From NCBI GenBank assembly GCA_902551895.1, contig CACDEU010000013.1:1-33476 (forward strand): a stretch of 33,476 bases of DNA, in the 5' to 3' direction. Every line of letters starts with the position of its first letter. The stretch's first letter is position 1. The notes under the pieces are model-generated. The model was not told the DNA's origin. It was given only the letters and a program-made list of their open reading frames with translations, and made no database searches. This document shows positions 1,673-10,505 of the stretch, in pieces. The DNA is from an uncultured Pelagibacteraceae bacterium (GTDB taxonomy: Bacteria > Pseudomonadota > Alphaproteobacteria > Pelagibacterales > Pelagibacteraceae). The position numbers were made by a program, and so were the translations under genes.

Positions 1673-1700
1673 CGGGGCACCTGGCAACAGAACGCCCCTT
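1673..1700 (-). terminator. GGGGC/GCCCC hairpin followed on the minus strand by GAATTTT; possible terminator for the minus-strand hsd operon or an ancestral thrC terminator
   Basis: Minus strand reads AAGGGGCGTTCTGTTGCCAGGTGCCCCGAATTTT: 5-bp GC stem then a T-rich tail. Confidence 0.5.
1686..1700. repeat. Left copy of 15-bp direct repeat bordering the R-M cassette (AACAGAACGCCCCTT)
   Basis: 14/15 identical to 6831-6845 (AACAGAACGGCCCTT), same orientation. Confidence 0.6.
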
Positions 1701-1743: not shown

Positions 1744-1774
1744 TTCAATGAAGGTTCAGTGAAGATTCAATGAA
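1744..1774. repeat. Three tandem near-palindromic repeats TTCARTGAA with 11-bp period
   Basis: TTCAATGAA 1744-1752, TTCAGTGAA 1755-1763, TTCAATGAA 1766-1774; starts exactly 11 bp apart. Confidence 0.8.
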
Positions 1775-1820: not shown

Positions 1821-4223
1821 CTAATTAGACCAAAATTTTTGAATTTTGATTTGAATTTTATTTTGAAAATCATCTATTGTTTTTTTATTAATATTAATCA
1901 TATTCTTTTCATAATTCCATGTATCTATAAATTTTATTTGTTCTTTAATTGGAGCAACTGGAATTTTAACTTTTCTAATAATTGGCATATTCAACCCACT
2001 TCTTTGTTTGTCTCCAGTTAAATTTCTTATTTTTTTATAAATACTATTTAGATATAAATATAAAAATTCTGTTTTAAGAATTTTTTCATCATTTGGGTTG
2101 ATAGATACAATTGATTGATTGCAAGTTGCTTTTGTTCTTAATATTGCTACTGTTCCTCTTGTTTTGCCTTGTCCATTTAAAGCAATTAAAACACTATTAA
2201 TTGGAAGAAATTTTACATTAGAATTTTCTACGCCTTTTTTAGTAATAAACTTTTTAGCAGTATTAATCTCAACATTGTGTATATCACCTGAGACCAACCA
2301 TGGTATGTCACCATTTTCATAAAATTTTTTATTATCAGTTCTGGGTGTTGCACCAGTCATAAGCGAGCATAGTTTTCCTATTTCAACCATCTCCCAACTT
2401 GGGTCAATATCAATTGAAGGTTTATAGTTTTCTACAACCTGTTTGCATCCATCAATAATTTTTTGATATCCATCTAATTCTTCAACTATATGATTTTGAG
2501 TTTCTATTTTTGGTAGTGGTAAGTTGAAGTTTTGTAACATTGGAAGTTTTATAAAAGGAATTGCATTTCCAATTTTAAGTTTATTTAAATATTCTGGCAT
2601 TTTATTTCTAAGCAAGTGATATAAATACTTGCAATTTAATTCTTTAAAGTCACTTAGAACATATGTTCTTTGATATGCTTCAAACTTACCTTTATAATAA
2701 TCAACTTTTCCAGTCCATCTACCATTTCCAACGATTAATAACGCTTCGCAGTCAAAACTAAATTTATCTGAATATGTATTTTTTTCAGCACAAGTAAAAA
2801 ATGGGTAAATTCCATTAGGGTTTCCTTCATTAACATCCTTTTTTCCTGTTTTTATGTTGCACACATCTTTAAGACTTAATGTGGTATATTTTTTTGATTG
2901 AAATGAATAATCTTCATAAGATGAAGTTACTAAACTATAATATTCATTAAGTAGTATTTCTTTTTTTGTAAAAACCTTAATTTTTTCATTTTTAATTTTA
3001 ATTTTATTGAAAAAATCATTTGAAAAATATTCTAGCTCACTACCTTCAATTTTGTTCCTACTAGAAGTTAGTGAGTAACCATCATTATCAATGTTAATAA
3101 AATATATATTTTCATTTTTCTTATTTCTCAATTTGTCAAGTATTAGAATTGATGTTTTAACTCCAGAGTATGGTTGAAATACACCAGCAGGCAAACTTAT
3201 TACTGCTATCAAAGAGTTATTTATTAAATTTTTTCTTAACTGCTTATAGGCAACACCATTCTGAAATATAATTCCATCGGGAATAATTATTCCTGCACGA
3301 CCATTTGGTTTTAAATGTTCATTAATATAATCAACAAATAATACTTCCGCTTTTGTTGATTTAACTCCAAATTTATTGTGTGGTGTAATACCTCCTTTTG
3401 GTGAAAAGAATGGAGGATTTGCAAGTATTACATCATAGTATTCATTCCAATTATCTTCACTTGAAAGAGTGTCATATTCATTAATTTTAGGATTAGTAAA
3501 TTTATGTAAATACATATTTACTAAAGACATTTTCACCATATCGGGAGAAATGTCGTAACCATTTAAATTTTCACCAATCTTTTTTCTATCTGATGCATTT
3601 AGACCGTCACCTAAATTCTTTTTAGTATTTTGTTTTAAAATATGTTTGTAAGAACTAATTAAAAATCCCGCTGTACCACAGGCAGGGTCTAATATTGTTT
3701 CTTTTTTTTGCGGATTAACTATCTCAACAATAAAGTCAATTATATGTCTTGGTGTTCTAAATTGACCTGCGTCTCCCTGTGAACCCATAAAAGATAATAA
3801 ATATTCAAATGCATCTCCTAATTGTTCAGAATTAGAGTAATTAAATTCATTAATCTCTTTTAAAAACATGTTAAGTGTTGCAGCATCTTGGAAAGGAATA
3901 AATGATCCTTTAAAAATTTCTCTAAATAATTCTGGAAGATTTTCATTATTATACATTTCTTTTATTGATTCTGAATAGAGAGAAACTTTTTCAACACCAC
4001 TCGTTTTTGTATCCATTAAATGCTTCCAAGAATATTTCTTAAATTTTCCTGAGAAATAAGTTGCTTTACCACCCATGGATACTGATTCTTGATCCATGTC
4101 ATTCATAAACTTGTAGATTAGACCGTTTGTAATTTGTTCAACTTGTGCTTTTGGATCTGGTAGTTTGCCTACAAGAATGTCTCTTAAACTATTAATCCTT
4201 TTTTTTGTTTCGTTATCAAGCAT
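1821..4223 (-). CDS. Fused type I restriction-modification methyltransferase-specificity protein (HsdM-HsdS), two target recognition domains
   Basis: 800 aa. N-terminal N6-adenine MTase: ILDPACGTAGFL (motif I), VILANPPFFSPKG (motif IV NPPF). C-terminal about 355 aa has two HsdS-like TRD + helical-spacer units: KYTTLSLKDVCNIKTGK...LPLPKIETQNHIVEELDGYQKIIDGCKQ and SWEMVEIGKLCSLMTGATPRT...KIPVAPIKEQIKFIDTW. Confidence 0.92.
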   Translation of the reverse strand: MLDNETKKRINSLRDILVGKLPDPKAQVEQITNGLIYKFMNDMDQESVSMGGKATYFSGKFKKYSWKHLMDTKTSGVEKVSLYSESIKEMYNNENLPELFREIFKGSFIPFQDAATLNMFLKEINEFNYSNSEQLGDAFEYLLSFMGSQGDAGQFRTPRHIIDFIVEIVNPQKKETILDPACGTAGFLISSYKHILKQNTKKNLGDGLNASDRKKIGENLNGYDISPDMVKMSLVNMYLHKFTNPKINEYDTLSSEDNWNEYYDVILANPPFFSPKGGITPHNKFGVKSTKAEVLFVDYINEHLKPNGRAGIIIPDGIIFQNGVAYKQLRKNLINNSLIAVISLPAGVFQPYSGVKTSILILDKLRNKKNENIYFINIDNDGYSLTSSRNKIEGSELEYFSNDFFNKIKIKNEKIKVFTKKEILLNEYYSLVTSSYEDYSFQSKKYTTLSLKDVCNIKTGKKDVNEGNPNGIYPFFTCAEKNTYSDKFSFDCEALLIVGNGRWTGKVDYYKGKFEAYQRTYVLSDFKELNCKYLYHLLRNKMPEYLNKLKIGNAIPFIKLPMLQNFNLPLPKIETQNHIVEELDGYQKIIDGCKQVVENYKPSIDIDPSWEMVEIGKLCSLMTGATPRTDNKKFYENGDIPWLVSGDIHNVEINTAKKFITKKGVENSNVKFLPINSVLIALNGQGKTRGTVAILRTKATCNQSIVSINPNDEKILKTEFLYLYLNSIYKKIRNLTGDKQRSGLNMPIIRKVKIPVAPIKEQIKFIDTWNYEKNMININKKTIDDFQNKIQIKIQKFWSN

Positions 4224-6702
4224 TTATAAATCTGTTTATATCAATATTTTCTTTAATATATGAAGGTAATTTCTCTCTTACTTCAGATGATAGTTTTTTA
4301 AAAAATTCTCCAGATGGATGTGTATTTAACTCAGCAAATTTTTTATTATCGATTATTTCTCTAAAACTTTTATCAGTAACATATGCTTCTAGAACCTGTT
4401 TACTTTCATAAAACTCATTATCTTTAAATTTAAATTTATCATCTAATTTTTCATGCTCATCTAAAATTATTTCATCTTTAGTCTTAATTTTATCAATAAA
4501 TCCAAATGTATATAATAGCAGTTCTTTTATCGAAATATTAATATCTAATCCAAGAGATTTTCTAAGTTTATCTAAAGAAAATTTTGTCTCTGATTTATTT
4601 AATATATTTTGTTTTAAGTATTCATCTGCTTTGTTAAATTCTTGCCTTTCAACAAATTTTTTTAATACATCATCATTAATAACTTTATCTTTAAAAGACT
4701 TATATAGTTCTCTATCTATTCTCATGCCCGTTTGTGGTATAAAAATTTCCTCTGTTTTCTTAACTGGATCCTTTTCTAAATTGTATACTAGATCGTTAGG
4801 TGGAGGTGGCGGAGTCGTAGGAGGGATTTTTCTTGGTTCGGGTAATTTTAGTTTTTCATCATAATTAAACTCATTTTCAAAGTAGTGATAATTATGAAAA
4901 TAATCAAAAAGTTTAAAACTTTGTTTTTTAGGATAATCAATATCAGGTATATCATTTTTTGACATCCAACATTCAGTAAAATCAAATATTCTTGTTCCCC
5001 TTCCTTTCATTTGAATAAATTCTGAAGGAGAAAAAACAGGTCTCATTAAACAAATATTTAATATATCTCTGCAATCATAACCTGTCGTCATCATCGCAAC
5101 TGTTACACAAACTCTTGCTTTTGAAGTTTTGTATAAAGGGTTTAATGGAGAGTTTCCCAAAAGATTATTATTTGAAAAATCTACTGTCATCTGTTGAGGA
5201 TTCATTGAATCCACACTAGAGGTGATCTGGACTGCAAAATCAGAGTTATATCTATTTGGAAATTCTTTTTCTGCAAGTTCGTTTAAAATTTCCGTAATTC
5301 TCTCCGCATGATTTTGGGAAACACAAAAAATTAGTGTTTTTCCAATTTCATCCGTGAAGGGATCTAATAAAGCGTTTTTAATAAACGCATTACAAAAAGA
5401 TAAATTCGTTTCATGAGATTTAAATCTTTTTTCGTAATCTTTTTTTGTAAAAACTTCTTCTTCAACATCATTACCGTCTTCATCAACACCCTTAAATGAT
5501 AATCCTTCTTCTTTCATCATTTCTGCGGAAAGACCTGTCTCTACATCTATAACAGTTGGATTTACTAAAAATCCATCTCTAACTCCATCTGCTAATGTAT
5601 ATTTAAAAGTTGGTTCACCATCTTCGCAACCAAATATAGTGTATGTATCTAAAATTAATCTTCTCTCTAATTGTTTAGGATCAGACACAGACATGTTGTC
5701 AGCATCCACAGATTTTAAGAAATCTCTAGGAGTTGCGGTTAAACCTAATTTAAATCCAACAAAGTATTCAAAAACATTTCTACTTCTAAGTCCTAGACTT
5801 CTGTGTGCTTCATCTGAAATAACAAAGTCAAAATCATTTGGTTGAAATATTCTCTTATATTTATTGTGTTTAGTAAATGATTGTACAGTTGAAATTACAA
5901 TTTCTGCTTTTCTCCAATCATCTTTATTTTCTTTCCAAATAACTGTTTTAAAATCATTTTTTAAAACTTGTTCAAACTCTTTCTTCGCTTGGGTTTCTAA
6001 TTCTAATCTATCTACTAAAAATAAAACTCTTTTTACTTTATACAATCTTAAAAACATTTTAATTATTCCAGCAGAAGTATTTGTTTTTCCAGTACCGGTC
6101 GCCATTTCTAAAAGAAACCTGTCTCCACCATTTTTAATTTTATCCTTTATTGCTTGAATTGCTTTAACTTGATAATCTCTTAAAAACTTAAGTTTATTTT
6201 TTTTAATGAAACTTTCTTTTTTATCTTCATTGTTAAAATCAGGATTTTTTTTGTATTCTGGAAACTGTGTTAATGTTAAATAATCATCATTAACGTCTTC
6301 ATCTTCATCTCTTGGAGGATTAAAAGACTCTCCTCTTAATTCTAAATATTTTTGGGTTGGTAATCTATCTATTAAATGTGGATTGCCTAATTTTGTATCC
6401 CACAAATAATGCTTAATTCCATTAGATAGAATTATAAATCTTGATTTTAAAGATTGGGCGTATTGTCTTGATTTTTCTTTACCTGCTAGAGGAGACTTGG
6501 AACTGTTTTTTGCCTCAACTGTACATAAAAAAAAACCTTTAGAATTTAACAAAACGTAATCTGCTTTTCCATGCTCATTTTTTATTTCAGTTTTGACATT
6601 GATTTCTTTATCTTCATGCCAACCAGGAAGTTTCCAACCTGATTCCAAAAGCATTTTATCTATTTTTATTCTTGCATCAGTTTCTTTTAAACTCATATTC
6701 AA
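4216..6702 (-). CDS. hsdR: Type I restriction enzyme R subunit, EcoEI-like (PD-(D/E)xK nuclease + SF2 translocase)
   Basis: 828 aa; HGKADYVLLNSKGFFLCTVEAK nuclease core, MATGTGKT Walker A, SDEAHRS (DEAH box), LTATP, MKGRGTRIFD motif VI. Overlaps the HsdM-S start by 8 bp (ATGCTTGA). Confidence 0.95.
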   Translation of the reverse strand: MNMSLKETDARIKIDKMLLESGWKLPGWHEDKEINVKTEIKNEHGKADYVLLNSKGFFLCTVEAKNSSKSPLAGKEKSRQYAQSLKSRFIILSNGIKHYLWDTKLGNPHLIDRLPTQKYLELRGESFNPPRDEDEDVNDDYLTLTQFPEYKKNPDFNNEDKKESFIKKNKLKFLRDYQVKAIQAIKDKIKNGGDRFLLEMATGTGKTNTSAGIIKMFLRLYKVKRVLFLVDRLELETQAKKEFEQVLKNDFKTVIWKENKDDWRKAEIVISTVQSFTKHNKYKRIFQPNDFDFVISDEAHRSLGLRSRNVFEYFVGFKLGLTATPRDFLKSVDADNMSVSDPKQLERRLILDTYTIFGCEDGEPTFKYTLADGVRDGFLVNPTVIDVETGLSAEMMKEEGLSFKGVDEDGNDVEEEVFTKKDYEKRFKSHETNLSFCNAFIKNALLDPFTDEIGKTLIFCVSQNHAERITEILNELAEKEFPNRYNSDFAVQITSSVDSMNPQQMTVDFSNNNLLGNSPLNPLYKTSKARVCVTVAMMTTGYDCRDILNICLMRPVFSPSEFIQMKGRGTRIFDFTECWMSKNDIPDIDYPKKQSFKLFDYFHNYHYFENEFNYDEKLKLPEPRKIPPTTPPPPPNDLVYNLEKDPVKKTEEIFIPQTGMRIDRELYKSFKDKVINDDVLKKFVERQEFNKADEYLKQNILNKSETKFSLDKLRKSLGLDINISIKELLLYTFGFIDKIKTKDEIILDEHEKLDDKFKFKDNEFYESKQVLEAYVTDKSFREIIDNKKFAELNTHPSGEFFKKLSSEVREKLPSYIKENIDINRFINA

Positions 6703-6717
6703 ATTTTACCCCAATTC

Positions 6718-6781
6718 TCAGTGAAGTCGAGAAGCAAGGTTTTAGAAATATGGTCAAACTCTCAGTGAATTCCTCAGTGAA
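6718..6781. repeat. Three copies of TCAGTGAA upstream of hsdR
   Basis: TCAGTGAA at 6718-6725, 6762-6769, 6774-6781 (start spacings 44 and 12 bp); same core as the 1744-1774 array. Confidence 0.75.
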
Positions 6782-6830
6782 GTATTTCAAAAAGTCTATA
6801 TTTTATGTTATTAATTAAAATTGAGGGAGA

Positions 6831-6845
6831 AACAGAACGGCCCTT
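6831..6845. repeat. Right copy of 15-bp direct repeat, abutting the thrC stop codon (AACAGAACGGCCCTT)
   Basis: 14/15 match to 1686-1700; last base coincides with the thrC stop codon (minus strand). Confidence 0.6.
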
Positions 6846-9794: not shown

Positions 9795-10505
9795 TTACCA
9801 TAAATAAAAGAATGCAAAAATAAATACCCATACTAAATCTACAAAGTGCCAATATAAACCAAGAATTTCAATTTCAACATAATCACCTTTCATTGTTGTA
9901 AACCAACCTCTTTTACCTTCATCATAATGACCTGCAAAAGTTTTATAAGCATAGATAAATAAGAAAATTACTCCTATTGATACGTGGGTTCCATGAAATC
10001 CAGTTATCATGAAGAAAAAAGATCCAAATTGTGGTGCACCAAAAGGATTTTCCCAAGGTCTTACACCTTCGTGGATTAATTTACCCCATTCAAAGGCTTG
10101 CATACCTACGAAGGTAAGTCCGCCAATCGCCGTAGCTAATATAAGCCATCCACACATTTTTTTATTTTTTTCATAACCATATTTTACAGCAAGAGCCATA
10201 GTTCCACTGCTTGTGATTAAAACAAATGTCATGATAGCAATAAGTAACAAAGGAACATCTACACCGAATACATGTAACCCAAAAACTTCACTTGGATTAG
10301 GCCAATCAATTATAGTTGAACCTCTACCCTTCATGTATGAAATTAAAAAACAACTAAATATAAAGGTATCACTTAACAAAAAGATCCACATCATTGCCTT
10401 ACCCCAATGAACACCTTTGAACATGGTTTGATCAGAACCAGTGTCCTTTGCCATTCCTTTAAAACCGGGTTTTAATTCGTAGCCTTCTATTTTAAAATCA
10501 GACAT
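9795..10505 (-). CDS. Cytochrome c oxidase subunit III
   Basis: 236 aa; FMITGFHGTHVSIGVIFLFIYAYKT and EILGLYWHFVDLVWVFIFAFFYLW. Confidence 0.93.
   Translation of the reverse strand: MSDFKIEGYELKPGFKGMAKDTGSDQTMFKGVHWGKAMMWIFLLSDTFIFSCFLISYMKGRGSTIIDWPNPSEVFGLHVFGVDVPLLLIAIMTFVLITSSGTMALAVKYGYEKNKKMCGWLILATAIGGLTFVGMQAFEWGKLIHEGVRPWENPFGAPQFGSFFFMITGFHGTHVSIGVIFLFIYAYKTFAGHYDEGKRGWFTTMKGDYVEIEILGLYWHFVDLVWVFIFAFFYLW

Follow-up and report, generated by a model that had tools for sequence, protein, structure and literature searches.

The term Type IMS was coined in 2012 for an engineered M-S fusion of EcoKI and extends to fusions carrying either one TRD or two (Roberts et al, 2012; PMC3510504). 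The two-TRD EcoKI fusion was active in vivo and, once purified, required added HsdM in vitro (PMC3510504). The engineered CC398 MSfus, which likewise carries two TRDs, methylated both strands in vivo at about 76% of sites and, together with HsdR, cut DNA without added HsdM; it gave a gel-filtration peak that its authors took for a possible dimer, and a clipped fragment containing M co-purified with it (Bower et al, 2018; PMC6158711). A comparable ratio of methylase to recognition parts is found in single-chain enzymes: TstI combines one methylase with a two-part DNA-binding domain per chain and, as a homotetramer, methylates the strands in turn (PMC4027205), and in the main review the methylase:TRD ratio of AloI and CjeI is described as 'a mystery' (PMC3874165).

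The window analysed here, the whole stretch of 33,476 nucleotides from an uncultured Pelagibacteraceae bacterium (contig CACDEU010000013.1), carries on its reverse strand an hsdR gene and an hsdM-hsdS fusion gene (hereafter the MS gene), and we consider it highly probable that the two constitute a Type I-like system in which both TRDs are used. Both open reading frames lie where the preliminary description of this DNA had placed them, at 4216-6702 (hsdR) and 1821-4223 (MS gene, 800 aa), and overlap by the 8 bp it reported (4216-4223). No RNA gene was recognised in the window by ARAGORN or by Rfam at its gathering cut-offs. The features of the locus are the following:

1673..1700, forward strand: left boundary, copy of the ssrA (tmRNA) 3' end, CGGGGCACCTGGCAACAGAACGCCCCTT; 1673-1699 identical to the end of the genome's ssrA
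1744..1774, forward strand: iteron-like repeats YTCARTGAA, just inside the left boundary
1821..4223, reverse strand: hsdMS fusion gene, 800 aa; methylase, then two TRD/helix units
1827..1949, reverse strand: C-terminal helix CR2, aa 759-799 (41 residues), predicted by the AlphaFold model
1956..2393, reverse strand: TRD2, aa 611-756
2427..2507, reverse strand: central helix CR1, aa 573-599 (27 residues), predicted by the AlphaFold model
2508..2891, reverse strand: TRD1, aa 445-572
2890..2896, reverse strand: A7 run at the M/S junction, codons 443-445; not conserved in relatives
2892..3038, reverse strand: variable M tail/junction, aa 396-444; 10-27% identity despite 83-88% in the M core
3039..4223, reverse strand: HsdM-like N-terminal and catalytic domains, aa 1-395; 83-88% identity within SAR11
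4216..6702, reverse strand: hsdR restriction subunit; PD-(D/E)xK nuclease and SF2 translocase, with ResIII/DEAD/HSDR_N_2 domains
6713..6784, forward strand: iteron-like repeats CTCAGTGAAGT, between the hsdR start and the right boundary
6832..6845, forward strand: right boundary ACAGAACGGCCCTT, in the same orientation as the left

The architecture of the 800-aa protein is clear from its domain content. Pfam assigned N6_Mtase to aa 132-436 (E 1e-53) and Methylase_S to two stretches (E 1.6e-36), and the two TRDs scored separately in the genome search (E 6.8e-23 and 5.7e-19); these results bear out the covalent M-S fusion with two TRDs that had been proposed, and with it the count of one methylase per two TRDs in each chain. 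The motifs DPACGTAGF (aa 179) and NPPF (aa 269) are present as claimed, and D, P, G, T, G and F of the first, together with NPPF, are invariant in 43 relatives. The M/S junction, initially put near nt 2890, agrees with the start of TRD1 at aa ~445 (nt ~2891). In a first AlphaFold model, based on 17 sequences, the methylase core was of poor quality (pTM 0.42); a second, based on 43 related sequences and computed as a single chain, reached a mean pLDDT of 85 with a pTM of 0.55, and because of this pTM the placement of the M and S domains relative to each other is untrustworthy and was not used. Following the methylase, the second model predicts TRD1, a helix at 573-599, TRD2 and a helix at 759-799, with its lowest pLDDT at aa 440-443, in the M/S linker. 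The S part of the first model was matched by Foldseek to the complete two-TRD HsdS 1yf2_A (TMt 0.70, 408 columns), and the methylase of the second to the solved HsdM 2okc_A (TMt 0.75). SAR11 members share 83-88% identity in the methylase core (aa 1-395) but only 10-35% in the M tail, TRD1 and TRD2; for the central segment, aa 567-612, the figure is 57-78% within SAR11 and 54-78% over the two-TRD members. Judged from these alignments, a conserved methylase with divergent TRDs is the pattern left when specificity modules can be exchanged while the methylase stays fixed. An internal start for a free TRD2 half was also considered, at the ATG of aa 611, and was discarded since GGGAG directly abuts this codon, too close for a ribosome site.

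The hsdR frame may begin at a TTG (828 aa) or at the ATG at 6696 (826 aa), the latter fitting the 826-aa relatives. The protein keeps D48...E63-A-K65, Walker A, DEAH and motif VI, the key residues being invariant in 23 relatives. Its earlier designation as 'EcoEI-like' is only loosely right: the best NCBIfam match is indeed EcoAI/FtnUII (NF046051, Type IB), but at 222.6 bits it falls short of the 550-bit equivalog cut-off. The curated defence families MADS MAD2/MAD5 scored far under their cut-offs and were rejected.

The host assembly comprises 1.03 Mb in 56 contigs and is 81% complete. Within it, a genome-wide profile search found no HsdS beyond the MS fusion, and an N6_Mtase search found no separate HsdM, the two remaining matches being identified by sequence as PrmC and a CcrM-like enzyme. 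The supposition that no further hsdM or hsdS completes the system is thus upheld in this 81%-complete genome, and to the extent of the assembly the system is a two-gene one. CcrM-like methylases are expected in Alphaproteobacteria; the one identified here from its sequence adjoins a ribonuclease HII-like gene (L005, G000:C20).

A scan of a genome collection, a kind of check that the preliminary description had suggested, found 24 loci, mostly with hsdR directly upstream. Counted from the match table of an even draw, a fusion or a contig-end piece of one occurs in 10 of 397 Pelagibacterales genomes; among 399 Pseudomonadota there are four with a fusion, including the study genome, and one of these four has an in-frame stop. 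Relatives outside SAR11 include a two-TRD fusion on a Paracoccus plasmid and a one-TRD fusion of 677 aa, adjoining hsdR, on E. coli IncF plasmids. Among 5,426 E. coli genomes, 78 carry the IncF form, in every case on a plasmid and with at least 99% identity; in one example (L066, 3406-8034) the one-TRD fusion and hsdR lie beside a TrlF-family ATPase. Two loci with interrupted genes were also observed, L133 (2437-4988), in which hsdR is broken into two overlapping ORFs, and L068, whose MS gene has an in-frame TAA past codon ~364; each may reflect decay or sequencing error.

In a maximum-likelihood tree of the methylase domain, in which canonical HsdM and unfused systems were included, the whole group is set apart from canonical HsdM by long branches (support 100/100) and the fused proteins form one clade of 36 members (support 95/93). 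Outside this clade branch the unfused R-M-S systems L139 and L140, in which M and S are separate ORFs, the S of L140 having no Pfam match at E 0.1. On the evidence of the tree, the fused proteins make up an old and well-supported clade, with unfused R-M-S systems as its closest relatives. Its members are assigned to at least seven phyla (Pseudomonadota, Actinomycetota, Bacteroidota, Bacillota, Cloacimonadota, Chloroflexota and Cyanobacteriota); many of the relatives are metagenome bins, and some of these are possibly misassigned. The idea that the fusion arose as a streamlined variant is not supported by this distribution, since the family is also found in Cloacimonadota, Chloroflexota, Bacillota, Bacteroidota and Paracoccus; streamlining was rejected as the reason for the fusion because the clade spans non-streamlined phyla besides streamlined marine lineages.

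Members with a single TRD (L016, L029, L135 and the pair L066/L137) are scattered among the two-TRD members, and from their separate positions in the tree at least four changes of TRD number can be deduced. L135, with one TRD, and L136, with two, are 88.6% identical in DNA over hsdR and the methylase to codon ~422; beyond this point their specificity parts are unrelated, and the downstream flank is then 89.5% identical. By this alignment, the swap between L135 and L136 is a visible cassette exchange beginning at methylase codon ~422. Both contigs are listed as viral and stem from one common metagenome. Across the family both TRDs are retained and diversified, and individual TRDs recur in the other position: TRD1 of L006 pairs with TRD2 of L009 (54%), TRD2 of L008 with TRD1 of L027 (50%) and TRD1 of L016 with TRD2 of L070 (60%). 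This recurrence suggests that both TRDs are probably used and can replace one another; most likely they are interchangeable modules of which neither is vestigial.

We propose, with a moderate preference over other arrangements, that the locus is a horizontally acquired Type I-like R-M system of Type IMS layout, whose fusion chains oligomerise and so bring two methylases to each bipartite site. Within one chain, the two TRDs together with the two helices would fold as an ordinary bipartite HsdS reading two half-sites, and a second fusion chain, in a homodimer or a higher assembly, would provide the second methylase. Each half-site would be read and methylated on its own strand, while HsdR would dock on M, translocate and cleave DNA that lacks the modification. 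Relatives with one TRD would attain the same geometry by means of symmetric dimers on a palindromic bipartite site. Published work on the engineered fusions and on TstI speaks for the feasibility of such an arrangement; it counts against the proposal that a dimer of full fusions leaves a second S half without an assigned role. The stoichiometry had initially been regarded as unusual; the ratio was given correctly, but it is not unique, since AloI and TstI share the 1:2 proportion (PMC3874165, PMC4027205) and engineered two-TRD fusions are active (PMC3510504, PMC6158711).

The alternative that survives best, although we judge it rather unlikely, is that the fusion gene also yields free HsdM, by frameshifting, stalled translation or proteolysis near aa 445, and that the active core consists of one fusion plus one free M, an ordinary M2S1. 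The EcoKI fusion acts in this way in vitro, and released HsdM was sought and invoked in vivo (PMC3510504); because that fusion needed HsdM in vitro and a clipped M fragment accompanied the CC398 fusion (PMC6158711), free M retains some probability. The junction itself offers the A7 run at codons 443-445, stops within about seven codons in both alternative frames, and a linker that is the least confident stretch of the AlphaFold model. However, at 27% G+C a shifted frame would be expected to meet an early stop, an A/T run of at least 7 within about 10 codons of the junction occurs in three of eight AT-rich full-length SAR11 members where ~1.3 are expected, and the GC-richer members are without any such run. 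Programmed frameshifting at the A7 run was rejected on the ground that the run is not conserved across the family, and for the same reason the release of free HsdM is placed second to the oligomerisation of fusion chains.

It is less probable still that single chains or higher oligomers work in the manner of TstI and AloI, with one methylase serving both half-sites successively. The proportion of one methylase to two recognition parts per chain is identical, and the TstI homotetramer offers a precedent for strand-by-strand modification; those enzymes, however, carry their own nuclease domain and work without a translocating HsdR, and the fact that a Type I M contacts one TRD while HsdR docks on M favours a defined M2 core. 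We regard as very improbable a scheme in which only the TRD1 half-site is methylated and TRD2 serves for recognition alone, with asymmetric modification as the outcome. Although the single methylase of each chain covalently adjoins TRD1, and single-strand schemes are known in Type ISP and MmeI-like enzymes (PMC3874165), the TRDs recur in both positions and both are complete, the engineered two-TRD fusion methylated both strands (PMC6158711), and daughter duplexes would be unprotected after replication unless special cutting rules applied. An artefact or a dead gene (misassembly, contamination or a decayed system), as might be suspected in so fragmented an assembly (56 contigs, 81% complete), is effectively refuted by full-length homologues that show this architecture in numerous independent genomes and plasmids, by the intact catalytic residues and by flanks of SAR11 core genes that are adjacent to each other in close relatives.

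The restriction pair is best explained as a horizontal acquisition. The close homologues are Pelagibacteraceae (SAR11) records, and the flanking genes are common to genomes of the same genus. As rnhA and thrC are adjacent in the closest relatives (L098, L099), the hsdR/MS pair is an insertion between them; hsdR is 92% DNA-identical to that of L006, from another SAR11 species (genome G009), as against 74% for rnhA and 78% for thrC, and the island was therefore transferred recently. The genome's own tmRNA gene (contig 5) ends in CGGGGCACCTGGCAACAGAACGCCCCT, identical to 1673-1699, and ACAGAACGNCCCTT is found at 1687 and 6832, the sole two copies in the genome. The link to ssrA was first seen in relatives and then confirmed in the study genome; the boundary repeats are not classical integron attC sites, a reading that was abandoned when they proved to be ssrA 3' ends. 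The iteron-like repeats that lie inside both boundaries are possibly operator or recombinase arm sites. Similar tandem repeats inside boundaries were observed in L026 (4846-5007 and 10054-10095) and L009 (around 5230-5440 and 10420-10450), and the unit sequences vary among genomes (TCARTGAAG, AAACTTCGTGT, TTCATCACTCC).

The exact boundary 14-mer is present in 161 of 297 Pelagibacterales genomes sampled, with ~0.0009 per genome expected and zero for the reversed control. Copies within one cluster lie on the same strand in 42 of 42 neighbouring pairs of the clusters inspected; they often separate cassettes of 0.2-5.8 kb, and no kept ORF crosses a site. Among 76 internal alignment ends between arrays, many of which share one chromosomal flank and hence are not independent, 34 fall at a site in both sequences, such positions representing 2% of the sequence. 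These alignments indicate that homology between arrays tends to end at ssrA-type sites. Arrays begin at ssrA itself, beside thyX, and further copies are located at rnhA-thrC (the window, L213, L214) and near a pnp-like gene (L212); loci with cassettes bounded by ssrA ends are L205-L214 and L026. No recombinase was seen inside the arrays that were read, and one or two tyrosine recombinases per genome are encoded elsewhere in 13 of 14 genomes checked. The genes for tmRNA are known integration sites in other bacteria. As far as the sequences can tell, the cassette strings look like integron-like accretion at ssrA, and dense strings of small recombinase-free cassettes look unusual. According to a 2007 study, the variable regions of SAR11 show no integron signature. 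In Candidatus Actinomarina (L012), a direct repeat of 65 bp, at 5373 and 10650, encloses a related restriction pair; the repeat looks like a tRNA 3' end and would point to tRNA-site integration.

The fused layout as such is not new, having been named in 2012, with engineered examples and a natural structure of the one-TRD type (PDB 7eew). What is new, on the basis of the tree and alignments, is a natural two-TRD fused clade with unfused nearest relatives and repeated change between one and two TRDs; in the open-licence literature, no description was found of such a natural clade or of one-to-two TRD switching, nor of an integron-like arrangement of tmRNA-3'-end cassettes. The side finding on ssrA-end cassettes may be more novel than the restriction system. 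It can be hypothesised, tentatively, that this is a natural, self-sufficient fused Type I family with one methylase and one or two TRDs per chain, in which one cassette exchange behind methylase codon ~420 switches between a symmetric (palindromic) and an asymmetric bipartite target, and which in SAR11 would travel as one among many small recombinase-free tmRNA-3'-end cassettes. The matched natural one-TRD/two-TRD pairs are of a design for which open-licence papers have so far offered engineered Type I fusions and Type IIB enzymes of a single chain; the long-standing question of one methylase to two TRDs becomes directly testable with the E. coli plasmid relatives. In addition, intact-looking restriction systems are documented here in SAR11, for which a 2022 survey stated that none were known (PMC9516812), and the ssrA-bounded island hints at how such genes may enter highly streamlined SAR11 genomes.

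Among described systems, Type IMS (the EcoKI fusion and CC398 MSfus; PMC3510504, PMC6158711) corresponds best in layout, with HsdM fused in frame to HsdS, one or two TRDs and a separate HsdR; those proteins are laboratory constructs made from Type I enzymes, whereas the present ones form a natural, separately evolved clade with frequent one/two-TRD change. The locus shares with Type I an HsdR with nuclease and SF2 translocase motifs, an HsdM-related gamma-class N6-adenine methylase and a specificity region of two TRDs parted by conserved helices, and departs from it in that HsdM and HsdS are not separate polypeptides but one ORF. EcoAI and EcoEI (Type IB) are the reference for HsdR, which is nearest to EcoAI/FtnUII among NCBIfam models but lies far below the family cut-off, and Type IB has a separate HsdM and a long HsdS. 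The best fold match of the whole model in Foldseek is the 'intact MTase' of Vibrio vulnificus YJ016 (PDB 7eew, 638 aa), described as a subunit of a Type I methyltransferase, whose alignment covers the methylase and TRD1 of the present protein; only one TRD aligns, however, and an identity of about 20% makes it a distant relative. AloI, TstI and CjeI (Type IIB) likewise combine one methylase with a two-TRD recognition region per chain, but their chain includes the nuclease and cuts near the site, whereas here HsdR is separate and ATP-dependent and Pfam matched no nuclease family in the 800-aa protein, which places it outside the AloI group of Type IIB/IIG. Finally, the Type ISP enzymes LlaGI and LlaBIII resemble the present system in the fusion of Type I parts and in their ATP-dependent translocase, but they unite R, M and one TRD in a single polypeptide, whereas here HsdR is a separate ORF and the methylase is joined to two TRDs.
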